Positions 38,887 through 54,659 of a stretch of 64,000 bases of DNA are shown piece by piece. Made by a program: the position numbers and the translations under genes. The notes under the pieces were generated by a model. That model had not been told where the DNA came from, did no database searches, and worked only from the letters and a program-made list of their open reading frames with translations. This DNA is from Celeribacter sp. HF31. Its GTDB lineage: Bacteria > Pseudomonadota > Alphaproteobacteria > Rhodobacterales > Rhodobacteraceae. Within the stretch, counting starts at the first letter, position 1. Each line of letters starts with the position of its first letter. The stretch covers positions 372,001 through 436,000 of the forward strand of contig NZ_JAATOT010000003.1 in the NCBI RefSeq assembly GCF_011806455.1. Direction: 5' to 3'.

Positions 38887-39033
38887 CTGATCTCTTTCTC
38901 GGCCTGATGCCGGGCCTTGCGTCTCGGTCGCATCTGGTCTCAAGTGAGGGCGCTGACACAAGATTGCAAGCGGAAGGCGATGAGTGGGTCGTCTGGGGCG
39001 TTGAGCACCGTTTGTTGCGCAAAGGATATAAAA

Positions 39034-40518
39034 ATGAACAGCAGTTTGAAAAGCCTGATCCTCGAGACAGCGCCCGCGCGTGAGACCCGGAGCTTTGCTG
39101 ATCCCGCGGCGGCGGTGGATTATCTTGAGACGCTTTATTCAGAGGCCTGTTCTTTTTTGACGGAGAAATTTTCGCTCATCGCGAGCGGCGCGGAGCCCGA
39201 AGCGCGCTATCGAGCTTACTACCCGGAAATTCGCGTGGTCACGACGTCTTATGCGACGATGGACAGCCGCCTGTCCTTTGGTCATGTCGCCAAGCCGGGC
39301 GAATATTCGACGACGATCACGCGGCCCGATCTGTTTCGCAATTACCTGAAACAGCAGGTTTCCCAAATCCTGCGCAACCATGGCGTGATGGTGCAAATCG
39401 GCATTTCGGACACGCCGATGCCGGTGCATTTCGCGGTGGCCAATGACGAAAACATCACTGTGCCGCAGGAGGGTGCCATGGCCTATCCGCTGCGCGACAT
39501 CTTCGATGTGCCGGATTTGACGACGACACACGACGATATTGTCAACGGTTTCGACTACACCCATGCGGATGGATCGGGGGCTTTGGCACCCTTCATGGCG
39601 CAGCGCATCGATTATTCTCTGGCTCGCCTATCGCATTACACCGCGACCGATGCCTGCCATTTCCAGAACCACGTGTTGTTCACCAACTACCAGTTCTACG
39701 TCTCCGAATTCGAAGCCTATGCGCGCAGCCAGCTGGCCGATCCTGAGAGCGGTTACACCAGCTTTGTCTCCACCGGAAATGTCGAGATCACCTCGGCCGA
39801 TGAAGAGATCCCGCCCACCGCGAAGATGCCCCAGATGCCGACCTATCACCTCAAACGCGCGGACGGATCGGGGATCACGCTTGTGAACATCGGTGTCGGG
39901 CCGTCGAATGCGAAAACTGCGACGGATCACATCGCCGTTTTGCGTCCACATGCCTGGATCATGGTCGGCCATTGCGCGGGGCTGCGCAATTCGCAGCGGC
40001 TCGGGGATTTCGTGCTTGCACATGCTTATCTGCGGGAAGATCACGTTTTGGATGACGACCTCCCGGTCTGGGTGCCGATCCCGGCGCTGGCGGAGATTCA
40101 GACCTCGCTCGAAGATGCCGTCGAACAGGTGACCGAGTTGGAGGGCTATGACCTCAAGCGCATCATGCGGACGGGGACGGTGGCGACGATCGACAACCGC
40201 AACTGGGAGCTGCGTGATCAATCCGGCCCGGTGCAGCGCCTGTCGCAATCGCGGGCCATTGCGCTCGATATGGAAAGTGCGACGATCGCAGCGAACGGAT
40301 TTCGGTTCCGTGTGCCCTATGGGACGCTTCTTTGTGTGTCGGACAAGCCGCTCCATGGCGAGCTGAAATTGCCGGGCATGGCGTCTGATTTCTATAAATC
40401 ACAGGTCTCTCGACACCTGTTGATTGGGATCCGCTCCATGGAATTGCTGCGCGACATGCCGATTGAACGCATTCATAGCCGAAAATTGCGCTCTTTCGAG
40501 GAGACGGCCTTCCTTTAA
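39034..40518 (+). CDS. amn: AMP nucleosidase
   Basis: Cleaves AMP to adenine and ribose 5-phosphate, 494 residues. ATG 39034 has AAAGGAT upstream; earlier starts overlap the divergent epimerase gene. N-terminal region carries TRPDLFRNYL, and the C-terminal phosphorylase-like domain has GVGPSNAKTATDHIAVLRP, GHCAGLRN and ALDMESATIAANGFRFRVPY, which are the nucleoside phosphorylase-fold segments. It regulates the adenylate pool. No phosphate-regulation motif is evident in its short upstream region. Confidence 0.92.
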   Translation: MNSSLKSLILETAPARETRSFADPAAAVDYLETLYSEACSFLTEKFSLIASGAEPEARYRAYYPEIRVVTTSYATMDSRLSFGHVAKPGEYSTTITRPDLFRNYLKQQVSQILRNHGVMVQIGISDTPMPVHFAVANDENITVPQEGAMAYPLRDIFDVPDLTTTHDDIVNGFDYTHADGSGALAPFMAQRIDYSLARLSHYTATDACHFQNHVLFTNYQFYVSEFEAYARSQLADPESGYTSFVSTGNVEITSADEEIPPTAKMPQMPTYHLKRADGSGITLVNIGVGPSNAKTATDHIAVLRPHAWIMVGHCAGLRNSQRLGDFVLAHAYLREDHVLDDDLPVWVPIPALAEIQTSLEDAVEQVTELEGYDLKRIMRTGTVATIDNRNWELRDQSGPVQRLSQSRAIALDMESATIAANGFRFRVPYGTLLCVSDKPLHGELKLPGMASDFYKSQVSRHLLIGIRSMELLRDMPIERIHSRKLRSFEETAFL

Positions 40519-43423: not shown

Positions 43424-43583
43424 GGCGGGCTCCTCGCGTTGGATTTGCTTTAACCGATGTCACTTCTTTGGGCAATCAATGCGATGAGGGGGAGTCCAAT
43501 CCGTTTTTCCCCCGAGAAGCTCTTTGGAAAATACGGATTTCTGTGGGACGCTTGGACATAGCTTACTTTGTAAGGGGACAAAA

Positions 43584-44951
43584 ATGACTTCTACAGACAT
43601 ACACCAGGGCTCGGGTGGCGAGGGTAAAAAGCTGTCGCTCACGGCCAAAATTATGATCGGGATGATCGCCGGGGTGATCCTTGGCGTGATTTTGAACATG
43701 GTCGATAACGCGTTCATCAACACGCATATCATTGGCGGGTTGTTCGCGATGATCGGCAAGATGTTCGTCAACGCGCTCAAGATGCTCGTTGTGCCGCTGG
43801 TCTTCTTTTCGCTTTTGACCGGGGTGACGGGCATCGGCGACATTCGTCTTTTGGGGCGGGTCGGTGGCAAAAGCTTCGGTCTTTACCTGATGACCACGGC
43901 GCTGGCGATCGGGATCGCCATTATCCTTGCGCTGATCATCGGGCCGGGGAACGGCTTTGATATGACCGGCGTCGACACGGGCGGCATCGCGGGGCGCGAG
44001 GCACCCACCGTATGGGATGTGTTCGCCGCCATCGTGCCGACCAACCCGGTTGCCGCTTTTGCCAACGGGGAAATGCTCCAGATCATCTTTTACACGATCA
44101 TTCTCGGGGTCGCTGTTCTGATGCTCGGCCATCGGTCGAAAGGTTTTGTCGAGGGCTGCGAATATATGAACGAGGTGATGATGAAGGTCGTGACCATCGT
44201 CATGAGCTTTGCCCCCATCGGTGTGTTCGTGTTGATCGCCAAGACCTTTACCGAGCAGGGTATCGAGTTGTTCATCCCCGTTCTGGCCTATGTCCTGACG
44301 CTGACGGGCGCGCTGTTCCTGCATCTTTTCATTACGCTGATGATCATGCTCAAACTGTTCACGGGAATGAGCCCTTTCACCTTCATGGCCAAGATTCGCC
44401 CGGCGCAGCTCTTCGCCTTTTCCACGGCCTCCTCGAACGCAACGATTCCCGTGACTTTGCGCTCCGTGACGGAACGCATGGGGGTGGATAATTCCGTGGC
44501 CTCCTTCTGTGTGCCTTTCGGCGCGACGATCAACATGGACGGCACTGCAATCATGCAGGGCGTGGCCACGGTGTTCCTCGCCAATGTCTACGGCATTGAT
44601 CTGGGCGTGATGGGCTATCTGACCGTGATCGCCATGGCGGTTCTGGCCTCTATCGGCACCGCTGGCGTGCCGGGTGTGGGTCTTGTGATGCTGACCATGG
44701 TGTTGGGTCAGGTGGGCTTGCCGATCGAGGGGATCGCACTGATTCTCGGCGTCGACCGCCTCATGGACATGATCCGAACGGCGGTGAACATCACCGGTGA
44801 CGCGGTGGTGACGACCATCGTTGCGAAAGGGGAGGGCAAGGTCGATATGTCGGTCTTTAACGACCCGAATGCAGGGCAAATCGCCGAAGAGGACATGCAT
44901 ATCGACGAAAGCGTCGAGGCGGAGCTTGCCGAAGCGGCTCATAAGCATTGA
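43584..44951 (+). CDS. Dicarboxylate/amino acid:cation symporter (SDF family)
   Basis: Inner-membrane sodium- or proton-coupled importer of C4-dicarboxylates or acidic amino acids, 455 residues. The SDF hallmark segments are FSTASSNATIPVTL (serine-rich hairpin 1), GATINMDGTAIMQGVATVF (the NMDGT motif) and LDRLMDMIRTAVNITGD-like helix 8 text (VDRLMDMIRTAVNITGD). ATG 43584 has AAGGGGA upstream; a frame from 43524 adds a non-conserved tail. The acidic C-terminus (ESVEAELAEAA) is long. Exact substrate unclear. Confidence 0.87.
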   Translation: MTSTDIHQGSGGEGKKLSLTAKIMIGMIAGVILGVILNMVDNAFINTHIIGGLFAMIGKMFVNALKMLVVPLVFFSLLTGVTGIGDIRLLGRVGGKSFGLYLMTTALAIGIAIILALIIGPGNGFDMTGVDTGGIAGREAPTVWDVFAAIVPTNPVAAFANGEMLQIIFYTIILGVAVLMLGHRSKGFVEGCEYMNEVMMKVVTIVMSFAPIGVFVLIAKTFTEQGIELFIPVLAYVLTLTGALFLHLFITLMIMLKLFTGMSPFTFMAKIRPAQLFAFSTASSNATIPVTLRSVTERMGVDNSVASFCVPFGATINMDGTAIMQGVATVFLANVYGIDLGVMGYLTVIAMAVLASIGTAGVPGVGLVMLTMVLGQVGLPIEGIALILGVDRLMDMIRTAVNITGDAVVTTIVAKGEGKVDMSVFNDPNAGQIAEEDMHIDESVEAELAEAAHKH

Positions 44952-44990: not shown

Positions 44991-45758
44991 TTAAACTTGA
45001 ATGATCCGGCAGCGATGTGCATCGCAGGTTTTCCTGACATCGTCTGAAAGCTGGGCCCCCGTCACGACCATGTCGTAGTCCCAGAGGTGCCCATGCTGGC
45101 ATGCCAGATCCAGATCGTATTTCTCACGATCCATCACCAGTATCGTCGTTTTGGCGCATTTGGAGATGGCTTTGCGGGCGGTCACTTCCTCGGAATTGTA
45201 ATCCATCACAGCCCCCGTCGAAGACAGCCCGCCACAGCTGAAAACAGCGTAATCGACACGGTAGTTCGCAAAGAACTCAAGGGACGCCACACCGATCAAA
45301 TCGAGATCACGCATCCGCACCGTGCCGCCCGCCATTTCCACCGAAACCCCCGGCGCGGATTGCAGGGCACAGACGGCGTGAATGCTATTGGTGGCGACGA
45401 AGAGATTCTCACGAGCGGCCAACAAACGCGCGCAATGTTCCACCGTCGTTCCGGTGCCCAAAGCCACGCGGCTGCGGTCTGGAATCAGGTTTTTGACGGC
45501 CAAGGCGATCCGTTGTTTCTCCTGGCGTGAGAGGCTTTCACGCGGCAGGTAGCCAATGTTTTCGCTTTGCTGTCTGAGGCGCGCGGCACCATTGCGCCGC
45601 TGGACCAGCCCCGCTTCATCCAGATCGCGTAAATCCGTACGAATGGTTTGAACCGACACGCCCAAACGGTCGGACAATTCCGCGGCAGAGCGCTCCCCGT
45701 GTTCAGACAGAAGCGCGATGATACGATCACGCCGCTCCCCCAAATCCAAACGTCTCAT
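44991..45758 (-). CDS. DeoR/GlpR-family transcriptional regulator
   Basis: A repressor of 255 residues from ATG 45758 (AAGGAA upstream). The N-terminal helix-turn-helix reads ERRDRIIALLSEHGERSAAELSDRLGVSVQTIRTDLRDLDEAGLV; the DeoRC sensor domain has ALGTGTTVEHCARLL, a sugar-phosphate-binding loop of this family. These regulators usually sense phosphorylated sugars. It is divergent from the importer operon at 45939, which carries a candidate operator, so it probably represses that operon and itself. Confidence 0.87.
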   Translation of the reverse strand: MRRLDLGERRDRIIALLSEHGERSAAELSDRLGVSVQTIRTDLRDLDEAGLVQRRNGAARLRQQSENIGYLPRESLSRQEKQRIALAVKNLIPDRSRVALGTGTTVEHCARLLAARENLFVATNSIHAVCALQSAPGVSVEMAGGTVRMRDLDLIGVASLEFFANYRVDYAVFSCGGLSSTGAVMDYNSEEVTARKAISKCAKTTILVMDREKYDLDLACQHGHLWDYDMVVTGAQLSDDVRKTCDAHRCRIIQV

Positions 45759-45890
45759 GATTTTCCTTCGAAAATGACTTTGAGTTTCATCAAGGTTAGG
45801 CGGCTTCGTTTTTTCGCGCAATAACATTAAAAAAGTTACGTTTTTGTCACAAAAACTTCGTGCGGTAAGGGAATAAGGCTCCTGTCAAAT

Positions 45891-45906
45891 ACTTTCGAAC
45901 GAAAGT
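45891..45906. promoter_or_regulatory. Candidate DeoR operator
   Basis: ACTTTCGAACGAAAGT is a perfect palindrome (45891-45906) in the 180-base divergent gap, 33 bases before the binding-protein start. DeoR/GlpR-type sites often contain TTTCG and CGAAA. A TTGTCA box lies at 45845, so it would sit downstream of a promoter. A weaker TTTTC-GAAAA pair lies near the regulator start (45761-45774). Confidence 0.5.
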
Positions 45907-45938
45907 GAAATCTTCAGGCCAAACTGCAGGAGAGCCCC

Positions 45939-46907
45939 ATGAAGACCGTCCTCACCACAACCGCTTTTGCCCTCATGGCCGGCACCGCCATGGCAGATAC
46001 GATCACCCTCTACACCTCCCAGCCGAACGCCGATGCCCAGCAGACCGTGGATGCCTTTATGGCTGCCAATCCGGGCACCGAAGTCGAGTGGGTGCGTGAC
46101 GGCACCACCAAATTGATGGCCCGCCTGCGCGCCGAGATCGAAGCGGGCAACCCGCAGCCCGACGTGCTTTTGATTGCCGACACCGTGACGCTCGAAGGCA
46201 TGGCGCAAGAGGGCCTTTTGCACGCCTATCAATCGCCTGAAGCCAGCAACTATGACGCGGCGCTCTATTCGCCGGAGGGCTACTACTACTCCACCAAGCT
46301 GATCACCACCGGCATCGTTTACAACACCGGCGTTGAGACCGCCCCGACCTCTTGGAAAGACCTCGAAGATGCGTCGATCAAAGGTCAGATCGCCATGCCC
46401 TCGCCGCTCTATTCCGGCGCCGCGCTGATCCATCTTGCCACGCTCACGGGCGATCAGGAGCTCGGCTGGGACTACTACGGCAAACTCGCCGCGAATGAGG
46501 CCCGCGCCCAGGGTGGCAATGGCGGTACCTTCAAAGCCGTCGCCTCCGGTGAGAAACCCTACGGCATGGTCGTCGACTTCCTCGCGATCCGCAACAAGGC
46601 GGACGGTTCTCCGGTCGATTTCATCTTCCCCGAAGAAGGCGTATCCTATGTGACCGAGCCGGTGGCGATCCTGTCCTCTGCCAAAAACGTCGAAGGTGCC
46701 GAGAAATTCGTCGACTTCGTTCTGAGCCAAGAGGGTCAGGATTTGGTGCTCGACATGGGCTACATCCCGGCACGGGACGGCATGGGGGTGCCGGCGGGTT
46801 TTCCGGCGCGCGAAGACATCAAATTGATGGCCTTTGACCCCGCTGAGGCGCTCGCCAATGCCGAGGCCAACAAAGCGAAATTCACCGAGCTGTTCGGCGC
46901 AGAGTAA
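45939..46907 (+). CDS. ABC transporter periplasmic binding protein (FbpA/AfuA-like)
   Basis: Periplasmic receptor of 322 residues with a signal peptide (1-19, cut at AMA-D). The mature part starts ITLYTSQPNADAQQTVDAF and includes ADVLLIADTVTLEGMAQEGLL-like text (PDVLLIADTVTLEGMAQ), as in the SBP_bac_6 group. Its relatives include FbpA (ferric iron) and AfuA (sugar phosphates). I cannot see the YxxxY iron-binding tyrosines clearly, so sugar-phosphate or other organophosphate ligands are plausible. The neighbours encode phosphatases and a DeoR regulator, which supports this. The stop overlaps the permease by one base. Confidence 0.82.
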   Translation: MKTVLTTTAFALMAGTAMADTITLYTSQPNADAQQTVDAFMAANPGTEVEWVRDGTTKLMARLRAEIEAGNPQPDVLLIADTVTLEGMAQEGLLHAYQSPEASNYDAALYSPEGYYYSTKLITTGIVYNTGVETAPTSWKDLEDASIKGQIAMPSPLYSGAALIHLATLTGDQELGWDYYGKLAANEARAQGGNGGTFKAVASGEKPYGMVVDFLAIRNKADGSPVDFIFPEEGVSYVTEPVAILSSAKNVEGAEKFVDFVLSQEGQDLVLDMGYIPARDGMGVPAGFPAREDIKLMAFDPAEALANAEANKAKFTELFGAE

Positions 46908-48610
46908 TGCAATCCGCCCTGCAAAAAGGAGGCAGCCGGTCCGAATCCCGGCTGCTTTCCGCCATTCTGATCCTCGCGCTTTGCCTGACGCTGGCCCCCG
47001 TTTTGCGGCTTTTCATCGAGGGCGTCACGGATCAGGGCGCGCCCTCTCTTTCGCTCGTAAAATCCGTTCTCGCGCAGGGTTCGACCCTAAACGCGCTCAA
47101 ACATTCGCTGATCACAGCGGGTCTTGGCACGTTGGTCTCCGTGGTTTTGGGAGCGGCTTTTGCCTTTCTCGTCGCGCTCACCGATTTGCGTGCGAAGGCA
47201 GCTTTGGTCTTTTGCCTGATGATCCCGATGATGATCCCGCCACAGATCACGGCGCTGTCCTGGACACAAATCATGGGTCCGTCTTCGGTGCTCTTGAAGA
47301 CCCTCGGCATTGCCCCGCCCCTGGGCGCGCCGCAGCCGCTTTATTCGCCTGAGGGCATCATTTTTTTGCTCGGCATTCAGCATATGTCGATCATCTTTCT
47401 GACGCTCCGCGCGGGGCTGCGGGCCATTCCGCAAGAGGTGGTCGAAGCCGCCCGGATCAGCGGCGCGCGGGGCTTTCGGACATGGCGGCAGGTGGTGATG
47501 CCGCTGACGCTCCCGAGCCTTGCGGCGGGCACCGCCATCACCTTTGTCACCGCTTTGGGCAATTTCGGCATCCCTGCGATGCTGGGCATTCCGGCGGGCT
47601 ATGTGACCCTGCCGACGCTGGTCTATCAAAAGCTCGCGGGTATGGGCACGACTGTGCTGGGCGAGGTTTCCGTTCTGGCGATGCTGATCGGCGCGGTCGC
47701 AATTGTCGGCATTCTGGTGCAGCGGTTTTTCCAGGGACGACAGAAACTCCATCTTGTCGGTTCCACCTCCCGTCCGCTTGCTATTCCTCTGGGTTCGGCA
47801 AGACTACCAGTGGAAATCCTGCTCTGGGCCGTGGTTTTCGTCATCCTTGTCTTGCCAATGTTTGGCCTCTTGGCGACGTCCTTGGTGCCCGCGTATGGTG
47901 TGCCCCTGCGGCTCGACACGATGACGCTGGCCTCTTGGGGGGAGGTGCTGTTTCGTCAGCCCGTAACGACCCGCTCCTTTGCCAATTCGTTCAGCCTCGC
48001 TCTGGGCGCGGCTGCTGTGTTGATGATGATCTGCCTGCCGCTGGCGTGGCTCATGGAACGCCACCCGACACCGCTGTCACGCCTCTTCGACAGCCTGCTC
48101 GATCTGCCTTACGCGCTTCCCGGCGTGGTCCTCTCGATTGCGATGATCCTTTTGCTGATCAAGCTACCCTTCACCGACGCGACGCTTTACGGCACGATCT
48201 GGATCATCTTCCTTGCCTATCTCGCGCGCTTCTTTGCGGTGATGTTCCGCCCGGTTCAGGCCAGCCTCAAACAGCTCGACCCAGCCATGGCCGAGGCCGC
48301 GCAATCGGTGGGGGCGGGGCTGTTTCAACGTCTGCGCGACGTGATCCTGCCGCTTTCCGCTCCGGCGGCTGCGGCGGGGGCGATCCTCGTCTTTCTCACC
48401 GCGTTCAACGAACTCACCGTCTCCGCGCTTTTGTGGTCTTCGGGCACCGAGACCCTGGGCGTGGTGATTTTCAATCTCGACGACAGCGGCGAAACCGCGA
48501 TGGCAAGTGCCCTAGCGATGACCATCGTCTTCGTGGTCATGGCACTTATGACCCTAATCCAGCTGTTTTCGCGTCGTTTTCCGAAAGGAGTGGTCCCATG
48601 GCAGACATAG
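46907..48610 (+). CDS. Fused double-domain ABC permease (FbpB/AfuB-like)
   Basis: Inner-membrane permease of 567 residues with two tandem permease domains (about 50-270 and 340-560). Both EAA loops are visible: EVVEAARISGARGFRTWRQV and AEAAQSVGAGLFQRLRDV, each followed by LPL. It forms the channel with the ATPase; a duplicated-fused permease is usual for this family. It overlaps the binding-protein stop by one base and the ATPase start by 13 bases. Confidence 0.87.
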   Translation: MQSALQKGGSRSESRLLSAILILALCLTLAPVLRLFIEGVTDQGAPSLSLVKSVLAQGSTLNALKHSLITAGLGTLVSVVLGAAFAFLVALTDLRAKAALVFCLMIPMMIPPQITALSWTQIMGPSSVLLKTLGIAPPLGAPQPLYSPEGIIFLLGIQHMSIIFLTLRAGLRAIPQEVVEAARISGARGFRTWRQVVMPLTLPSLAAGTAITFVTALGNFGIPAMLGIPAGYVTLPTLVYQKLAGMGTTVLGEVSVLAMLIGAVAIVGILVQRFFQGRQKLHLVGSTSRPLAIPLGSARLPVEILLWAVVFVILVLPMFGLLATSLVPAYGVPLRLDTMTLASWGEVLFRQPVTTRSFANSFSLALGAAAVLMMICLPLAWLMERHPTPLSRLFDSLLDLPYALPGVVLSIAMILLLIKLPFTDATLYGTIWIIFLAYLARFFAVMFRPVQASLKQLDPAMAEAAQSVGAGLFQRLRDVILPLSAPAAAAGAILVFLTAFNELTVSALLWSSGTETLGVVIFNLDDSGETAMASALAMTIVFVVMALMTLIQLFSRRFPKGVVPWQT

Positions 48611-49638
48611 ACATCACGTCTCTGGGCAAGGTTTTCGCAGGCGCCCCTGCGCTTCAGGACATTACAACCCGGTTCGAAGACGGCGAATTCGTCGCGCTTC
48701 TGGGGCCGTCGGGCTGTGGCAAGACGACGCTTTTGCGTCTGCTTGCGGGGTTCGACATGCCAAGCTCTGGCTCGATCCGCATCGGTGCGCGGCAGGTGGC
48801 GACGGCAACAAAAATGGTCCCGCCCGAAGAGCGCAACATCGGCTTCGTGTTCCAGTCTTACGCGCTCTGGCCGCATATGTCGGTACGTCGCAACGTGTCC
48901 TATCCGCTCGAAATCCGGAAACTGACAAAACCCGAGATCGCCGCGCAAACGGACGCCGCATTGGCCGCCACCGGATTGACGGATTACGCAGATCGTATGC
49001 CCTCAGATCTGTCGGGCGGGCAACGCCAAAGGGTCGCTCTGGCACGCTGTCTGGTTTCCGCGCCGGACGCGGTGTTGCTGGATGAGCCGCTCGCCAATCT
49101 CGACGTGGCCCTGCGTGCCTCGATGCAGGCGGTGTTCACCGATTTCCACAAACGCACCGGCGCGACCATGGTTTATGTCACCCATGATCAGGCCGAAGCC
49201 ATGGCGATGGCGGATCGTATTGCGGTGATGAATCAGGGTCTAATCCAGCAATTTGATACACCACAGACGCTCTATGAACGTCCGAAAAACCGTTTCGTCG
49301 CCGAATTTGTCGGGCGTGGCACTGTGGTGCCTGTGAGGGCGATTGAACACAATGAAAACCAGCTGCACGCGCATATTCTGGGCGCTCGCATTGCCGTTAA
49401 AAGCGAAGCGCAGTCCCAGGTCAGCCATGTCTGCCTGCGTCCCGAAAATCTGACGATTTCCGAGACCGGCGATCTGCGCGCCAAGGTGGCACGGGTCACC
49501 TATCTGGGTGGCAAATACCTTCTCGAAACCGTGTCCTCCTGCGGCACCCGTTTGCTGGCGGAGACGCGGGCGAAATTCGACGTGGGTGCGCAGCTTGGGC
49601 TCACCATCACGACCCCCTGGGCGTTTTCCGAGGATTAA
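48598..49638 (+). CDS. ABC transporter ATP-binding protein (FbpC/AfuC/MalK-like)
   Basis: Cytoplasmic ATPase of 346 residues. Walker A is GPSGCGKTT, Q-loop is VFQSYALWPHMSV, the signature is LSGGQRQRVALARC, Walker B is AVLLDEPLANLD and the H-loop is VTHDQAEAMAMAD. A C-terminal TOBE region (from about 240) includes VCLRPENLTI. ATG 48598 has AAAGGAG upstream and overlaps the permease end. It ends exactly where the metallo-hydrolase begins. Confidence 0.9.
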   Translation: MADIDITSLGKVFAGAPALQDITTRFEDGEFVALLGPSGCGKTTLLRLLAGFDMPSSGSIRIGARQVATATKMVPPEERNIGFVFQSYALWPHMSVRRNVSYPLEIRKLTKPEIAAQTDAALAATGLTDYADRMPSDLSGGQRQRVALARCLVSAPDAVLLDEPLANLDVALRASMQAVFTDFHKRTGATMVYVTHDQAEAMAMADRIAVMNQGLIQQFDTPQTLYERPKNRFVAEFVGRGTVVPVRAIEHNENQLHAHILGARIAVKSEAQSQVSHVCLRPENLTISETGDLRAKVARVTYLGGKYLLETVSSCGTRLLAETRAKFDVGAQLGLTITTPWAFSED

Positions 49639-50706
49639 ATGCAAAGCGTAAGACTTCTTTCCGGCATCGGGGACAAGGGCCCCGCCTGCATGCAGCTCAC
49701 CATCGACGACCGCATCTGGCTTTTGGATTGCGGCTTCGGACCCGAGGCGAATGCGCATTTTAATCCCGAATGGCTCACGGGCGCCGAGGCTGTGTTCATC
49801 ACGCACGACCACATCGACCATATCGGGGGGGCGTCTTATGCGGTGGAGGCGGGCTTACCGATCTACGCGACGGCTCAGACCGCAAAGGCCCTGCCGCCCG
49901 CAGCCAAGGTGCATCTTTTGCCCGAACAAGGCGAAAGCCTCATCCACGGCGTCAAACTCACCACAGGGCGCAATGGACATGCGATGGGCGGGGTTTGGAT
50001 GCATTTCGATCTGGGGGAGGGGCTGTTCTATTCCGGCGATTGGTCGGAAGAATCCGAGTGGTTCCCTCTCGATCTGCCGCCACCCGCCGCGACGGCCATT
50101 TTGGATTGCTCCTATCACCTCGACGATGTGCCGCAATCCGAGCGTTTCGCGGCTTTGGATGCTTTGCTTGATGGGTTGCATGGCCAAGTGCTTTTGCCTG
50201 TGCCTCCATCGGGACGCGCCGGTGAAATGGCGCTGCATCTGATCCGCCGCTACGGCATGGAAAGCGTTATGCTCGACCCGGAGTGTCAGTCCGCTCTGCG
50301 TGCCGCGCTGGCCAGTCACACCTTGAGCCCCGAGGTGCAAGAGATCGCGCCTCTGCTGAACCGTGGTCCGATGGAACAGGCCCGGTTTCTCATTTGCGAC
50401 ACGCCGAATGCCGATGGTGGCGCGGCTTGGGGCTATGTGCGGGCGTGGAATGAAAGCGGGCGTTTGGGACGTGACGCTCATGTCGTTTTCACCGGTCATA
50501 TGACTGCCCATGCCCGTGGAATTTGCGCGGTGCCCGGCGGGTATTTCCAGCGCTGGAACGTGCATCCGCCGCTGCGCGATCAGATTAAAATGCTTGACCG
50601 ATTGGGCGCAAAACGCTTTGCGCCCGCTTTTTGTGCCCAGCCGGAGGACTATCTGGTCGAGGATCTTGGCGTGGAGATTTTCCTCCACGATCCGGTGCGG
50701 CTATGA
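49639..50706 (+). CDS. MBL-fold hydrolase with beta-CASP-like architecture
   Basis: Predicted zinc hydrolase of 355 residues without signal peptide, so cytoplasmic. The metal motif HxHxDH is H56, H58, D60, H61 in ITHDHIDHIGG, and GHAMGG and YSGDWSEE are the later metal strands. An inserted segment (about 190-270, LLPVPPSGRAGEMALHLIRR) precedes a return to the fold with VFTGHMTAHARG and NVHPPLRDQIKML, a layout like CPSF73/RNase J beta-CASP nucleases. I infer nucleic-acid or phosphodiester cleavage but see no direct proof. ATG directly abuts the ATPase stop; it overlaps the next gene by four bases. Confidence 0.72.
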   Translation: MQSVRLLSGIGDKGPACMQLTIDDRIWLLDCGFGPEANAHFNPEWLTGAEAVFITHDHIDHIGGASYAVEAGLPIYATAQTAKALPPAAKVHLLPEQGESLIHGVKLTTGRNGHAMGGVWMHFDLGEGLFYSGDWSEESEWFPLDLPPPAATAILDCSYHLDDVPQSERFAALDALLDGLHGQVLLPVPPSGRAGEMALHLIRRYGMESVMLDPECQSALRAALASHTLSPEVQEIAPLLNRGPMEQARFLICDTPNADGGAAWGYVRAWNESGRLGRDAHVVFTGHMTAHARGICAVPGGYFQRWNVHPPLRDQIKMLDRLGAKRFAPAFCAQPEDYLVEDLGVEIFLHDPVRL

Positions 50707-51242
50707 GTGTTCTGCCCGCCAAAAATTTTTGCCTGATCCGCCATGGCGAAACCACGGCCAATGCCGATGAGATCATCGCCGGGCGCACGGATGTGTCGCT
50801 GACAGAACGGGGGCGGGATCAAGCGCGTGACCTGTTCAAACGCATATGGCCGGAGCATATCGTGCTCTACGCCAGCCCAATGTCACGGGCGCGCGAGACG
50901 TGTGAATTGGCCTTTCCCAACCAGCCATATGCCCTGCATGACGGTTTGCGTGAGCGGGATTGGGGTCTTTTTGAAGGGCAACCTTTGAGCGAGCAGCATG
51001 ACCGCGAGGCCACGCCCGAAGAGGGCGAAAGCTGGCCGTATATGCTCTCGCGTGTCGCGCAGGCGATTGTCGAGATTTGTGACACTTGCGAGGGCGCTTT
51101 GCCCGTTCTGGTCTGTCATTCCGGCGTCATCCGCGCCGCGCGAGTGCTTTGGACCACGGGGCATGTCGGCACGCGCCCACCCAATGCCACGCCGCTGTTG
51201 TTTGTGCGGTCTGGTCAAATTTTCGAGGAAACAGAGCTATGA
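50703..51242 (+). CDS. Histidine phosphatase family protein
   Basis: Phosphoglycerate mutase-like phosphatase of 179 residues. The nucleophile is H14 in LIRHGETTAN, R in SPMSRARET is the usual phosphate ligand, and LVCHSGVIRA carries the second catalytic His. The overall plan is close to small-molecule phosphatases such as CobC. Substrate unknown. It is coupled by ATGA to the metallo-hydrolase and to the next gene, so it works on the same imported compound or its breakdown product. Confidence 0.85.
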   Translation: MSVLPAKNFCLIRHGETTANADEIIAGRTDVSLTERGRDQARDLFKRIWPEHIVLYASPMSRARETCELAFPNQPYALHDGLRERDWGLFEGQPLSEQHDREATPEEGESWPYMLSRVAQAIVEICDTCEGALPVLVCHSGVIRAARVLWTTGHVGTRPPNATPLLFVRSGQIFEETEL

Positions 51243-51700
51243 CGCACCTCGGCAAACCCTGTGTGGTCTTCGATGTGGATGGAACGCTGGCGGAGTTCGA
51301 TGCGGGCAAACTCGGGCATCTCGTGCATGGGCTTGAAAAGCAATGGGATGAATTTCATGACGTCATGGCCGATGCGCCTTTGATTGCGCCTGTCGCCAAG
51401 CTGTTGCGCCGGTTGAAAGACAGCGGCGAGACCATCGTGATCTGTTCTGGTCGACCGGCGGGCTGGGCCGAGCATACGAAGGCGTGGCTGCGCAAACATG
51501 ACCTGCCGTTTGATGGCATTTACCTGCGGGCCGAGGATCAGGACAGGGCCAGCGATCCGGAGGTCAAACGCCGCGCTCTGGCGGAAATGAAAGCCGATGG
51601 TTTGGCGCCCTGGCTCGTCATTGATGACCGCAGTTCCGTGGTGGAGGCCTGGCGCGCAGAGGGTCTTGTTTGCCTGCAATGCGCGCCGGGCGATTTTTGA
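51239..51700 (+). CDS. HAD phosphatase resembling the 3'-phosphatase domain of polynucleotide kinase
   Basis: A 153-residue, single-domain HAD phosphatase. The nucleophile loop is FDVDGTLAEF (D12, D14); motif II is VICSGRPAGW; the C-terminus LVIDDRSSVVEAWRAEG and CAPGDF closely recalls the end of T4 polynucleotide kinase (AIDDR...VVEMW... GDF). In that enzyme this domain removes 3'-phosphates from nucleic acids. The kinase domain is absent here. It overlaps the histidine phosphatase by four bases and ends the operon; tenA faces it three bases away. Confidence 0.78.
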   Translation: MTHLGKPCVVFDVDGTLAEFDAGKLGHLVHGLEKQWDEFHDVMADAPLIAPVAKLLRRLKDSGETIVICSGRPAGWAEHTKAWLRKHDLPFDGIYLRAEDQDRASDPEVKRRALAEMKADGLAPWLVIDDRSSVVEAWRAEGLVCLQCAPGDF

Positions 51701-51703
51701 GGT

Positions 51704-52384
51704 TTAGGCTGGATTAGGCTCTATTTCTTTCCAGCCTTCGCCATTGTAGGCACTGTCCCAGAAGCGCCATTCATGCCAGCAGCTGCGCTTGAACGCATGA
51801 TGCATCCGGGCGCGAGCCGCGGAACTGGCCCCGGCTGCAACGCGGTCGGTCAGCGCCAACATACGCGTGACGCTCTCATCGAAGGCCTCGCCGGAATAGG
51901 TGGCAATCCACTCCGCATAGGGGTTCTCCGGGCGGCTGGTTTCAGCGATTTCTTTGCCGACATCGCGGTAAATCCAGAAGCAGGGCAAAAGCGCCGCGAC
52001 GGTTTCGGGGAATTCTCCGATCGCGGCGGTGCGCAACAAGAAAGACACGTAGTGATCGCAGGCAGCTGAGACATCTGTTGCTTCAAAGCTGGCGGTCGTG
52101 ATGCCGAAAAGGCCCATGTAATGGCCGTGCAACCCACGTTCGACGGCAATAGCCCCCGTGGCTGATCCGGCAAGTTGGGCCACGGCCTGTGCATCGGGGG
52201 CTTTGGCGGCGGCAAGGGAGAGGGCGCGGGCAAAACCTTCGAGGTAATGCGCGTCCTGAATGATGTAGCCTTGGAAGATTTCCGGCGGCAAAGTGCCCTC
52301 CGCAAGCTCGCGGTTGAACGCCATGGCATGGATTTGATCGCGCAGGGTTTGGGTCTCTTGCGCCAGCTCTTGAGTAAAGGTCAT
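51704..52384 (-). CDS. tenA: TenA-family thiaminase II / aminopyrimidine aminohydrolase
   Basis: Cytoplasmic thiamine-salvage enzyme of 226 residues that hydrolyses formylaminopyrimidine or degraded thiamine to HMP. Family residues: PPEIFQGYIIQDAHYLEGFARALSL, LLPCFWIYRDVGKEIAE, NPYAEWIATYSGEAFDE and the final FWDSAYN. Start ATG 52384 overlaps thiD by four bases (ATGA), so the two are coupled. The start was chosen because the longer frame reads into thiD. Confidence 0.92.
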   Translation of the reverse strand: MTFTQELAQETQTLRDQIHAMAFNRELAEGTLPPEIFQGYIIQDAHYLEGFARALSLAAAKAPDAQAVAQLAGSATGAIAVERGLHGHYMGLFGITTASFEATDVSAACDHYVSFLLRTAAIGEFPETVAALLPCFWIYRDVGKEIAETSRPENPYAEWIATYSGEAFDESVTRMLALTDRVAAGASSAARARMHHAFKRSCWHEWRFWDSAYNGEGWKEIEPNPA

Positions 52385-53184
52385 ATTTGACGTCCTTGTA
52401 GGGAATAAAAGTGATGCACAGGGCCATGGCCCGCGCCGACCGACAGCTCGTCCGCGTGAGAAATGGCGGCTGTGATATAGGTTTTGGCGTGCGCTGCGGC
52501 CTCCGGTAGGCTCAGCCCGGCGCCCAGCCACGTGGCCAGCGCAGAGGCATAGGTGCAGCCGGTGCCATGGGTGTTTTTCGTCGCGATTCGGGGGCTTTTG
52601 AGCCAGGTTTCTCCGGCGTCCGTGACGAGCAGATCGGGGCTTTCAGGACCGCTCAAATGTCCGCCTTTGAGCAAAACCGCCTTGGGACCGAGCGCGCGCA
52701 GGGCCTGAGCCTGCTCCCGCATGTCGTCCAAAGTCTTGGCTTCGGAACAGTCGAGAAGATCGGCGGCTTCGGGCAGGTTCGGGGTGATCACGGAGACCTG
52801 TGGAAGAAACGCGCGCAGGGCTGAGACGGCGCTCTGTTGCAACAACCGATCCCCGCCTTTCGCGACCATCACAGGGTCGAGCACCACGGGGCAGTCGAGA
52901 TCAGAGATCGCCTCCGCCACGGTTTGCGTGATCGCAGCATCGCCCAGCATGCCGAGCTTGATCGCATCAAGGCGGATGTCGTCGCGGATGGCTTTGATCT
53001 GCGCCGCGATAAAGTCTGTGGGGGAGAGATGAACGCCGGTCACGCCACGGGTGTTCTGCGCGGTCAGCGCGGTGATGACGGACATCGCATAGCCGCCATT
53101 GGCAGAAATCGATTTGATATCGGCCTGAATGCCGGCGCCGCCGGAACAATCGGAGCCTGCAATGGTGAGAATATTCGGGATCAT
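52381..53184 (-). CDS. thiD: Bifunctional HMP/HMP-P kinase
   Basis: Phosphorylates hydroxymethylpyrimidine twice to give HMP-PP for thiamine synthesis, 267 residues. Ribokinase-like: TIAGSDCSGGAGIQADIKS at the N-terminus, DPVMVAKGGDRLLQ, and NTHGTGCTYASALATWLG, where the Asp/anion hole GTGC is present. It overlaps thiE by four bases and tenA by four. Start ATG 53184. Confidence 0.94.
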   Translation of the reverse strand: MIPNILTIAGSDCSGGAGIQADIKSISANGGYAMSVITALTAQNTRGVTGVHLSPTDFIAAQIKAIRDDIRLDAIKLGMLGDAAITQTVAEAISDLDCPVVLDPVMVAKGGDRLLQQSAVSALRAFLPQVSVITPNLPEAADLLDCSEAKTLDDMREQAQALRALGPKAVLLKGGHLSGPESPDLLVTDAGETWLKSPRIATKNTHGTGCTYASALATWLGAGLSLPEAAAHAKTYITAAISHADELSVGAGHGPVHHFYSLQGRQI

Positions 53185-53804
53185 GCGTCCCTCCATGCGT
53201 AAAGGAGTTCGCGGCCTGCGGCCTCCATATTTTCGGCTTGTGAGATGGCGGAAATCACCGCCAATCCCGCGCCGCCCGACTGTTTGACGGCTGCGGCGTC
53301 GTGATGTGTGATCCCCCCGATGGCAAGACAGGGCAGCGGCGTCTGCGACACGATCTCGGCGAATCCATCGAGACCGATGGGCGCGGCGTGATCGGGTTTC
53401 GAGCTGGTCGCCCGGATTGGCCCAACGCCGAGGTAATCGACACCGGGGGGAATGGTCGCAAGCTGATCCTTTGTCTCAACGGAGAGGCCGAGGATCATGT
53501 CCGGGCCGATCCGACGCCGAATGTCGGCGGGATCGCCATCACTTTGGCCGACGTGCAGAACCGGTGCTTTGACGGCGATGGCCACCTCCACGCGGTCGTT
53601 GATCACGAGCTTGGCGCCAAGCCGTTCCAAAGCTGTCATCAGGGTCCGGGCGAGATCGGCGAACTCTGCGTCGGGCAAGGTCTTGTGGCGCAGTTGCACC
53701 CAACCGGCGCCCCCTTTGGCGGCGGCGAGGCTTTGGTCGATCATCGCCTCGGGCGAGGTGGGGTCTGTGATGAAGCAAAGCGGTGGGATGTCGAGGGAGG
53801 TCAT
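53181..53804 (-). CDS. thiE: Thiamine-phosphate synthase
   Basis: Joins HMP-PP and HET-P to thiamine phosphate, 207 residues. TIM-barrel blocks are WVQLRHKT, LVINDRVEVA, HVGQSDGD, LGLSVETKDQL, DYLGVGPIRATSSKPDHA and AIGGITHHDAAAV. It is coupled to thiM and thiD by four-base overlaps. Confidence 0.94.
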   Translation of the reverse strand: MTSLDIPPLCFITDPTSPEAMIDQSLAAAKGGAGWVQLRHKTLPDAEFADLARTLMTALERLGAKLVINDRVEVAIAVKAPVLHVGQSDGDPADIRRRIGPDMILGLSVETKDQLATIPPGVDYLGVGPIRATSSKPDHAAPIGLDGFAEIVSQTPLPCLAIGGITHHDAAAVKQSGGAGLAVISAISQAENMEAAGRELLYAWRDA

Positions 53805-54589
53805 CGCAGGCTGATCCTTGCGCCGTCGTTCAGCGCCTCGGGGCTCATGCCATAAAGCGCGTCGATGAAGGCGGTTTGGAAGGAGGCGGGGCCTTTGGCC
53901 TCACCTGCCATCTCTCCGGCCAGCGCATAATAGGCGAGGGCGGCGACAGTGGCCTCAAACGGGTCATGATCGACCAGAAACGCGGCGACGATCCCGGTCA
54001 AGGAGCACCCCAAAGCGGTGATTCGGGGCATCATCGGGTGACCATTGGCGATTTCAGCCATGCGCGCACCATCGGTGACGACATCAACCGGACCCGTGAC
54101 GGCAACAACTGCACCCGTCTGACGGGCCAGATCGCGGGCTGCGTCTTTGGCGGCGTCGACACTATCGGCGGCATCGGCGCCTTTGCCCGCTGTTTGCATC
54201 CCCGCCAGCGCCAGAATTTCGGAGGCATTGCCGCGAATGACCGTGGGTTTGCAGGCCAAAAGACGTGCACCGAGGTCACGACGATAACCAGTCGCACCGA
54301 CGGCAACAGGATCGAAGACCCAAGGTTTACCCAGCCGATGCGCGGTGCGCGCGGCCTCCACCATCGCCTCTGCCCAGGCTGGGGAGGGGGTGCCGATGTT
54401 GATCGTCAAAGTTTGCGCCAGGGCGGTGAATTCGGCGGCTTCCTCGCGCGCATGCACCATGGCGGGAGAGGCACCTGCCGCCAGTATGATATTGGCCATG
54501 ACATTCATGGCGACGTAATTGGTGATGTTCTGCACCAAGGGCGCGGTGTCACGCATTTTGGCAAGGTTTTGGCCGGGTTGGTTCATCAT
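53801..54589 (-). CDS. thiM: Hydroxyethylthiazole kinase
   Basis: Phosphorylates 4-methyl-5-hydroxyethylthiazole, 262 residues. The family pattern is PLVQNITNYVAMNVMANIIL, ASPAMVHAREE, KPWVFDPVAVGATGYRRD, VIRGNASEILAL and TALGCSLTGIVAAFL. ATG 54589 has GGAGGAG upstream; ATG 54586 is an alternative. It is the first gene after the TPP riboswitch. Confidence 0.94.
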   Translation of the reverse strand: MMNQPGQNLAKMRDTAPLVQNITNYVAMNVMANIILAAGASPAMVHAREEAAEFTALAQTLTINIGTPSPAWAEAMVEAARTAHRLGKPWVFDPVAVGATGYRRDLGARLLACKPTVIRGNASEILALAGMQTAGKGADAADSVDAAKDAARDLARQTGAVVAVTGPVDVVTDGARMAEIANGHPMMPRITALGCSLTGIVAAFLVDHDPFEATVAALAYYALAGEMAGEAKGPASFQTAFIDALYGMSPEALNDGARISLR

Positions 54590-54659
54590 GGTCTCCTCCA
54601 TCGCGGGAAAGGAGACCGTAAAAGCAAGGCAGAGCCGACAGGAGGCCCGCTTCTCTTAC

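Follow-up and report, generated by a model that had tools for sequence, protein, structure and literature searches.

A candidate operon for the import and intracellular dismantling of a small phosphate ester, with a beta-CASP-fold hydrolase and exchangeable phosphatases, in Celeribacter sp. HF31

Introduction

What does a bacterium take up through an operon that joins an ABC importer to a hydrolase of a nuclease fold and two phosphatases? The question is raised by a locus of Celeribacter sp. HF31 within a window of 64,000 nucleotides (the whole stretch of DNA that was analysed). In the sea, dissolved organic phosphorus and the debris of nucleic acids form large nutrient pools, and bacteria are usually viewed as stripping the phosphate outside the cell first. 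Here, we judge it probable, if not strongly so, that a small phosphate ester, most likely a phosphodiester or a cyclic phosphodiester, enters the cell through this operon and is dismantled in the cytoplasm. If true, the import of whole esters by a multi-clade operon family moves phosphate-stripping chemistry inside the cell, a nuclease fold of RNA processing serves nutrition, and functions are given to genes that are at present annotated as 'iron ABC transporter permease' or as 'MBL fold metallo-hydrolase'.

Results

The locus consists of a divergent DeoR gene and six tightly packed genes (Table 1), as the first-pass annotation had described it: all seven reading frames are open, and the coordinates give overlaps of 1, 13, 0, 4 and 4 bases at the successive junctions from the solute-binding protein (SBP) gene to the HAD gene. 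The DeoR reading frame in full spans 44991-45827 on the minus strand. Translation more probably begins with the ATG at 45758 (255 aa) than at 45827, since the annotated Phaeobacter homologue has 254 aa and in 8 of 11 relatives the match to the longer frame begins only at residue 5-32. In Phaeobacter inhibens 2.10 the corresponding genes are PGA2_RS18430-18460. Thiamine salvage genes lie just downstream (51704-54601); their orientation is convergent and the shared ORF families listed include none of this kind, and on these grounds they were dropped as partners.

Table 1. Features of the locus, in window coordinates.
Feature	Coordinates	Strand	Remarks
DeoR/GlpR-family transcriptional regulator	44991..45758	-	divergent; DeoRC E 4.5e-36, HTH_DeoR E 3.1e-11
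Operator-like palindrome CTTTCGAACGAAAG, presumed DeoR site	45892..45905	.	33 nt 5' of SBP start codon
Periplasmic solute-binding protein (SBP), AfuA/P5PA-like, 322 aa	45939..46907	+	SBP_bac_6/8
ABC permease, two fused transmembrane domains, 567 aa	46907..48610	+	BPD_transp_1, two stretches
ABC importer ATPase with TOBE domain, 346 aa	48598..49638	+	ABC_tran E 7.1e-35, TOBE_2
Small beta-CASP-fold metallo-beta-lactamase hydrolase (MBL), 355 aa, probable phosphodiesterase	49639..50706	+	Lactamase_B_2
Histidine phosphatase (HP), branch 1, 179 aa	50703..51242	+	His_Phos_1 E 2.1e-32
HAD phosphatase, polynucleotide-kinase 3'-phosphatase type, 153 aa	51239..51700	+	PF25109 HAD_PNKP E 3.3e-24

Close relatives were sampled as 80 named loci chosen by MBL similarity. 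The gene order recurs across them, and inferred junctions of at most 100 bases, from SBP to HAD, were found in 79/80, 79/80, 79/80, 79/79 and 68/68 loci, with medians of -1, -13, +2, +2 and -1 bases and outlying distances of up to 590 bases. This recurrence of order and tight junctions makes the gene grouping more than chance. The full seven-gene set is present in 67 of the 80 loci; by gene, all 80 have SBP, permease, ATPase and MBL, 79 have HP, 73 DeoR and 68 HAD, and one of the 12 relatives without HAD (L100) is without HP too. The co-occurrence of six families that the first-pass annotation had proposed to look for recurs in this sample. That annotation had also named, as signs of an accidental grouping, a ferric-iron site in the binding protein together with poor conservation of the last three genes, and these counts dispose of the latter. 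Extra neighbours that might reveal the cargo were not apparent, the non-cassette, non-overlapping ORF families listed each coming from at most 13 loci; the examples shown for these families are Thalassospira-type loci. No nucleoside-catabolism gene was found among the ORF families common to many loci (largest families listed).

The SBP carries a signal peptide (read by eye), and its top three profile matches are 8x1a (E 7.9e-28), 4r72 (AfuA, E 8.9e-27) and 6wce (P5PA, E 3.9e-22); glucose-6-phosphate-, sugar-phosphate- and pyridoxal-phosphate-binding proteins are its profile neighbours, ahead of ferric binders. In the Foldseek ranking of the predicted structure, 8x1a and AfuA take ranks 1 and 2 and P5PA (6wce) rank 10, and the ferric protein HitA takes rank 3, between AfuA entries and with an equally high TM score. 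On the model, fold comparison by itself does not separate the SBP from ferric binders. As for the ferric site named by the first-pass annotation, the profile places the SBP nearer the binders of phosphate esters and the fold leaves the matter undecided. An adjacent tyrosine pair holds Fe(III) in ferric-binding proteins (FbpA). Near the part of the SBP that would correspond to these tyrosines, only Y208 is invariant; a run of tyrosines at 115-117 is not conserved in two loci (L041 and L042).

Positions matching the phosphate residues of AfuA and P5PA (T56, S159, G160 and G193-N194-G195) are invariant in 48/48 SBPs, and the mean likeness between SBPs of different operon types is only 42-50%. The phosphate-site T150 of AfuA is replaced by alanine (A161), and its sugar-ring residues Y103, H205 and E229 by L121, V212 and V238, which are aliphatic in nearly all 48. 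Of the hexose-phosphate residues H205, D206 and E229 (here V212, D213 and V238) only the acidity of D206 is kept, as D or E; this residue mapping is approximate, the alignment having about 24% identity, and the structure model is weak at residues 190-220. A pocket of sugar-phosphate size would fit a mononucleotide but hardly an oligonucleotide.

Among NCBIfam models, PhnS2 is the best for the SBP and PhnU2 for the permease, and PhnT2 is second best for the ATPase. All three proteins fall short of the equivalog cut-offs that define this 2-aminoethylphosphonate (2-AEP) transporter (134.7 bits vs 392.75 for PhnS2, 175.5 vs 593.25 for PhnU2 and 306.5 vs 457.7 for PhnT2). In several RefSeq records the permease bears the name 'iron ABC transporter permease'.

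For the hydrolase, a confident AlphaFold model (pLDDT 93.3) and its Foldseek matches bear out the 'beta-CASP-like' label of the first-pass annotation. The best 50 of 1320 matches (TM by query 0.66-0.80) are all to CPSF/Ysh1, archaeal CPSF/FttA, TTHA0252, Integrator, RNase J and a type VII CRISPR effector, and the matched chains shown have 404-648 aa, vs 355 in the MBL. The protein has a metallo-beta-lactamase core with the HxHxDH, H and D ligands plus a beta-CASP part. Eight residues (H56, H58, D60, H61, H114, D134, D156 and H309) are invariant in 48/48 sequences, D156 aligning opposite a CPSF glutamate at the presumed motif A position. H287, which we take to be motif B, with H309 as motif C, is histidine in 39/48 and tyrosine or phenylalanine in 9/48. 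As judged from the model, the MBL is a beta-CASP-fold enzyme; taken with its conserved residues, it is a probable phosphodiesterase.

Both phosphatases retain their motifs in the close relatives: RHG[EQ]T in 78/79 and HSG in 79/79 for HP, and DxDGT in 68/68 for HAD. The latter scores 86.1 bits against PF25109 (gathering score 27.6) and matches Pnkp1 and T4 PNK in the PDB. A wider sample comprised 42 distinct MBL loci at E 1e-20 or better, the window's own included; in 41 of these the MBL gene has an importer gene no more than 1.5 kb away, and the remaining locus ends at a contig edge. The phosphatase slot differs by MBL clade, being occupied by HP and HAD, by SurE (8 loci), by HP alone (11) or by a dual-specificity type (8/9), and HAD occurs without HP in L220 and L221. 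In the MBL tree each of three groups lies wholly to one side of a branch, with support of 100/100 for SurE, 98/99 for HP and 100/99 for the dual-specificity group; the loci had been grouped by layout beforehand, and the independent result is their separation on the tree. Among 48 sampled operons, searches found no phosphatase beside the MBL in five (L140, L141, L149, L155 and L227). Enzymes of the HP, dual-specificity and HAD types can have other substrates as well, either proteins or small molecules of quite another kind, and SurE is a 5'/3'-nucleotidase family. Phosphate removal is the need common to these unrelated, clade-specific phosphatases. The first-pass annotation had proposed that an imported, possibly nucleic-acid-derived compound is stripped of its phosphates in the cytoplasm; the stripping is strengthened by the unrelated phosphatases that other lineages keep at the same place, and the suggested cargo keeps its provisional standing. 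A Na/Pi cotransporter gene, which may serve to dispose of phosphate, is adjacent or one gene off in 3/8 SurE-type operons, and one operon of this type has a phnCE-type gene set in its vicinity.

The regulators beside MBL operons vary as well (DeoR, SorC-type and LacI). The DeoR protein of the window carries both the HTH_DeoR and the DeoRC sensor domain. A palindrome, CTTTCGNNCGAAAG, precedes the SBP gene and tracks the presence of DeoR across related loci: its core, TTTCGNNCGAAA, lies within 130 nt of the SBP gene in 71/73 loci with DeoR vs 1/6 without (Fisher p 5.5e-6, uncorrected for relatedness; p 0.003 under a stricter distance rule), L088 being left out of the count because its DeoR side ends at a contig end. 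The exact palindrome has a single match in this genome's assembly (3.6 Mb, 96% complete), and the palindrome search gave 4 background matches in 1.53 Mb. A wider regulon was not apparent, a search with one mismatch yielding 19 genome sites vs 23 for the reversed-pattern control. The palindrome before the SBP gene is presumed to be the DeoR site.

Discussion

In the mechanism that we propose, the periplasmic SBP would capture the ester by its phosphate and the ABC importer would bring it into the cell whole. There the small beta-CASP hydrolase would cleave a P-O bond, leaving a monophosphate from which HP and HAD would take off the remaining phosphate, and the monophosphate or another intermediate would release DeoR from the palindrome before the SBP gene. 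The enzymes are placed in the cytoplasm, no signal peptide being seen by eye, and we infer the order of the reactions, the phosphodiester nature of the cargo and the effector of DeoR. The natural swap of phosphatases implies that HP, HAD, SurE and the dual-specificity-type enzymes should share one product as substrate.

The PNKP type of the HAD protein and the membership of its stand-in SurE in a nucleotidase family suggest that the cargo may be nucleotide-like, for example a 2',3'-cyclic nucleotide, a nucleotide or a dinucleotide, an assignment that falls somewhat short of an even chance. More tentatively, these might be nutrient operons of a hitherto undescribed family that import small nucleotide phosphodiesters intact, to be opened by the beta-CASP enzyme and freed of phosphate, down to the nucleoside, by an interchangeable phosphatase; environmental RNA would, in that same tentative reading, be the source of such cargo, with 2',3'-cyclic nucleotides and dinucleotides as examples. 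It would be, to our knowledge, the first case of the beta-CASP nuclease fold in nutrition.

The same logic could operate without nucleic acids, on a sugar or polyol phosphodiester such as an opine-like compound, a glycerophosphodiester or a cyclic inositol or ribose phosphate. DeoR, SorC and LacI regulators are commonly sensors of sugars or sugar phosphates and the AfuA-type pocket binds sugar phosphates; the agrocinopine acc operon, as far as the extract of its description goes, offers a precedent in its importer, AccF, AccG and an AccR that senses a cleaved sugar phosphate. However, the sugar-ring residues of AfuA have here given way to aliphatic ones, and the beta-CASP fold and the PNKP and SurE parts point to nucleotides, and we regard this explanation, joint with its cargo examples, as unlikely though of real weight.

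It is very unlikely that the operon imports 2-AEP or another phosphonate with the three hydrolases as passengers. The ranking of the Phn models and the phnCE-type set near one SurE-type operon speak for it, but the NCBIfam scores are far under the cut-offs, neither the cassette nor the listed ORF families of wide occurrence contained a recognisable phosphonate-catabolism gene, and the conserved parts are a phosphodiesterase fold and phosphatases. That MBL, HP and HAD form a nucleic-acid repair or processing set, co-transcribed by chance with an unrelated importer, is highly improbable: beta-CASP and PNKP domains do occur in nucleic-acid enzymes of known systems, yet domain-family searches found no kinase or ligase gene in the cassette, the MBL adjoins an importer in nearly all strong matches, and the phosphatase is freely swapped, HP and dual-specificity types included. 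Least probable of all is a ferric-iron importer with neighbours unrelated to it, for which the RefSeq permease name and the fold matches to ferric-binding proteins, HitA third among them, can be cited; the stronger profile matches to phosphate-ester binders and the conserved MBL, HP and HAD neighbours argue against it.

The first-pass annotation knew of no described system with this combination, and a full-text literature search likewise returned no description of such an operon among the matches listed (titles and abstract openings). We know of no AfuABC or P5PA operon that carries an MBL or phosphatases. The PhnSTUV and PhnS2-T2-U2 importers of 2-AEP belong to the same transporter superfamily and are among the best NCBIfam models, from which the present proteins differ by missing all three cut-offs and by a cassette lacking a recognised phosphonate-catabolism gene. 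Beta-CASP nucleases (CPSF73, archaeal CPSF/FttA, TTHA0252 and RNase J) share with the MBL the fold, the metal ligands, a presumed acidic motif A, a GRxxE stretch and a C-terminal histidine; the MBL differs in being shorter, in its setting in an uptake operon and in a putative motif B histidine that is not universal. With AfuABC (PMC4546632) and the vitamin-B6 phosphate importer P5PA (PMC8427247), in the excerpts of these reports, the SBP has in common the fold, the phosphate site and an ester taken up intact, whereas its identity is about 24% and the sugar-ring residues are not kept. The closest likeness in logic, the only level compared, is to the acc operon of the Agrobacterium Ti plasmid, which in the extract of its description comprises an ABC importer, the phosphodiesterase AccF, the phosphatase AccG and the repressor AccR, for which the cleaved sugar phosphate serves as effector (PMC4526662). 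Both arrangements would unite a phosphodiester importer, a phosphodiesterase, a phosphatase and a repressor freed by a cleavage product; cargo and enzymes differ from those in that extract, since here the hydrolase is an MBL of the beta-CASP fold and HP and HAD come after it.

The cassette and its conservation

The seven genes lie in the window where the first-pass annotation had placed them, with the overlaps it gave, and the family profile search returned the families it had proposed, including two BPD_transp_1 stretches in the fused permease (PERM) and the PNKP phosphatase type for the HAD enzyme (PF25109, E 3.3e-24), which has Pnkp1 and T4 polynucleotide kinase among its solved-structure matches. 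HAD and the histidine phosphatase (HP) retain their catalytic motifs. A signal peptide was read by eye at the start of the binding protein (SBP) and in none of the three enzymes, which suggests a cytoplasmic site of action for HP, HAD and the metallo-hydrolase (MBL) as judged from sequence. The naming of MBL as beta-CASP-like is likewise upheld, both by the fold of its structural model (pLDDT 93.3) and by profile search. The 50 Foldseek matches shown, of 1320 (query TM 0.66-0.80), are proteins that we take to be beta-CASP proteins; the PDB profile search ranked CPSF proteins at the top and gave far weaker matches to ordinary metallo-beta-lactamases and Apyc1.

Positions of features in the window and in two other loci
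Feature	Sequence	Positions	Remark
Palindrome CTTTCGNNCGAAAG	Window	45892-45905	Ends 33 nt upstream of SBP start
AMP nucleosidase-like ORF (by eye)	Window	38917-40518	About 4.5 kb from DeoR gene
Dicarboxylate/glutamate-type sodium symporter (by eye)	Window	43524-44951	Adjoins DeoR gene
Convergent thiamine salvage set: TenA-, ThiD-, ThiE-, ThiM-like ORFs (by eye)	Window	51704-54601	Directly downstream
Additional, distinct AfuA-like ABC importer that has a histidine phosphatase of its own	L042	9948-14822	Beside SurE-type operon
MBL relative, Rhizobium leguminosarum	L158	7956-9041	42% to MBL of L153; adjoins peptide-type (Dpp-like) ABC transporter and GMC-like oxidoreductase (by eye)

Among the neighbours, the AMP nucleosidase-like ORF is a suggestive hint of nucleotide metabolism, but unrelated genes intervene before DeoR; the thiamine salvage families are not among the listed ORF families common to many loci.

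MBL was found at 61% identity or more in 12 of 61 genomes searched (own genome counted), and the cassette is complete in the window and all 11 relatives (L030-L040), with rearranged gene sets in two more distant loci (L041, L042). Loci were selected by MBL similarity and thus show what accompanies MBL, not its frequency. In the best 80 of 121 MBL relatives from named genomes, those at 98% identity being Celeribacter, SBP, the permease, the ATPase (ATP) and MBL are present in 80/80, HP in 79/80, HAD in 68/80 and the divergent DeoR gene in 73/80, with gene order unchanged and all seven genes in 67/80. The last three genes are hence conserved with SBP, as opposed to an accidental grouping. Hosts include Celeribacter, Sulfitobacter, Shimia, Roseobacter, Phaeobacter, Tritonibacter, Paracoccus, Devosia, Roseibium and Thalassospira. 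MBL also occurs at 84-85% identity in 27 Phaeobacter plasmid records, and the gene table of one, from strain 2.10, holds the full cassette. At E 1e-20 or better MBL was matched in 24/394 genomes of the family and 17/398 of the phylum; in the class, 16/385 matched at 1e-12, eight of them at 1e-20 or better (own genome counted in all searches).

A wider family with exchanged phosphatases

The two outlying loci gave the first lead to a wider family, L042 having SurE after MBL, not HP or HAD. Manual grouping of annotated plasmids and divergent genomes yielded four layouts.

Operon layouts
Type	Gene order	Loci
I	DeoR / SBP-PERM-ATP-MBL-HP-HAD	
II	SorC-type regulator / SBP-PERM-ATP-MBL-SurE	8
III	ATP-MBL-HP-SBP-PERM	11
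IV	ATP-SBP-PERM-MBL-dual-specificity-type phosphatase	9

In two type I loci from another class of the phylum (L220, L221) HAD alone was found. Type II hosts include Nitratireductor, Aminobacter and Phyllobacterium; the regulator lies upstream in 7/8 (L217 has only a downstream relative at 34%), and a Na/Pi cotransporter gene adjoins or lies one gene away in three (L150, L152, L217). No DeoR-, SorC- or LacI-like gene was consistently adjacent in the 11 type III loci. LacI is adjacent in 7/9 type IV loci (by eye in L227) and the phosphatase present in 8/9 (not L227); its Pfam score is under the curated cut-off, RefSeq names two of these proteins dual-specificity, and HCxxGxxR is present in L144. 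On OW849205.1, a large Enterobacter cloacae IncF plasmid, SBP-PERM-ATP-MBL-HP is followed by a transposase-like gene, and no DeoR or HAD is annotated near this cassette relative. Searches found no adjacent phosphatase in L140, L141, L149 and L155; the first two have divergent MBL-SBP-permease sets, no adjacent ATPase found, and a lepA-like gene alongside (by eye).

In a maximum-likelihood tree of 48 MBLs, types II, III and IV are each separated from the rest by a single branch (support 100/100, 98/99 and 100/99), type I groups with the Enterobacter sequence (98/84), and the four loci with no adjacent phosphatase found do not cluster as one group. MBL and SBP distances are correlated (r 0.78, over 1128 non-independent pairs). 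An importer gene lies within 1.5 kb of MBL in 41 of 42 distinct MBL loci (E 1e-20 or better). The remaining locus, in genome G252, is truncated where its contig stops; a second G252 contig starts with the missing MBL end and carries SBP (33%), permease (27%) and ATPase (45%) in opposite orientation, and the two presumably join. Judging from L158, MBL may serve other importers too.

All 48 MBLs keep the metal ligands H56, H58, D60, H61, H114, D134 and H309 as well as the acidic D156, and H287 is His in 39/48 and Tyr or Phe in 9/48. The FTGH motif is absent from 13 of the 80 loci; the Thalassospira-like L145 reads FTGF, and the beta-CASP motif B His seems to be replaced there.

Probable regulation by DeoR

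The core TTTCGNNCGAAA occurs within 130 nt of SBP in 71/73 loci with a DeoR gene and 1/6 without (exceptions L108, L115 and L093; L088, cut by a contig end, was excluded), a linkage with Fisher p = 5.5e-6, uncorrected for relatedness of the loci. Elsewhere in these loci the core occurs 4 times in 1.53 Mb, and the exact 14-mer CTTTCGNNCGAAAG is found once in this genome. This tracking of DeoR and the single genomic copy are good sequence evidence that the DeoR circuit is local and dedicated. No sigma-70-like promoter turned up in a simple scan (0 against 0.2 expected). Twelve of the 13 loci L110-L122 (not L115) have a second palindrome copy about 190-230 nt before SBP.

Cargo and mechanism

The three closest solved relatives of SBP by sequence profile are VcA0625 (8x1a, G6P-binding), AfuA and P5PA; citrate- and iron-binding proteins rank next. 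The fold of its model (pLDDT 81.7, weak at 190-220) does not by itself decide the ligand class, because the ferric binder HitA ranks third after 8x1a and AfuA, and several ferric binders equal or exceed these two in TM-score. When the binding residues given in the available extracts on AfuA and P5PA (PMC4546632, PMC8427247) are mapped onto SBP by the profile-search alignment, the phosphate-site positions correspond to T56, S159, G160 and G193-N194-G195, invariant in 48/48, and AfuA T150 falls on an alanine, also invariant. In nearly all 48, aliphatic residues stand in place of the ring-binding AfuA residues Y103, H205 and E229, and the D206 position is Asp in 37/48 and Glu in 11/48. With mean between-type identities of 42-50% for SBPs and 24-39% for MBLs, the binding protein is, by this measure, better conserved than the enzyme. 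We infer that a single class of ligand would be bound across the whole family, one that carries a phosphate head but is not a hexose phosphate.

A phosphodiesterase fold is found in every member, and a phosphomonoester would need a phosphatase alone, which suggests that the cargo is a diester or cyclic ester. It would enter via the importer and be cleaved by MBL, and the resulting monophosphate would be hydrolysed by the phosphatase; the swapping of unrelated phosphatases between operons argues that this last step is needed. The 5/48 operons with no phosphatase found nearby may use one encoded elsewhere. Such a general import-cleave-dephosphorylate mechanism is, in our judgement, fairly probable. 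The beta-CASP fold, the PNKP-type HAD and SurE point to a nucleotide-like cargo, which is favoured, if tentatively and at somewhat less than an even chance, while the regulators favour a sugar diester.

Full-text literature searches, which covered few subscription journals, listed no paper on such an operon; the components are known, and the gene combination and the pattern of phosphatase swaps appear undescribed. The agrocinopine acc system, as presented in the available extract of PMC4526662, follows the logic proposed here for the cassette family, and its repressor has as effector the sugar phosphate released by cleavage and not the diester that is taken up.
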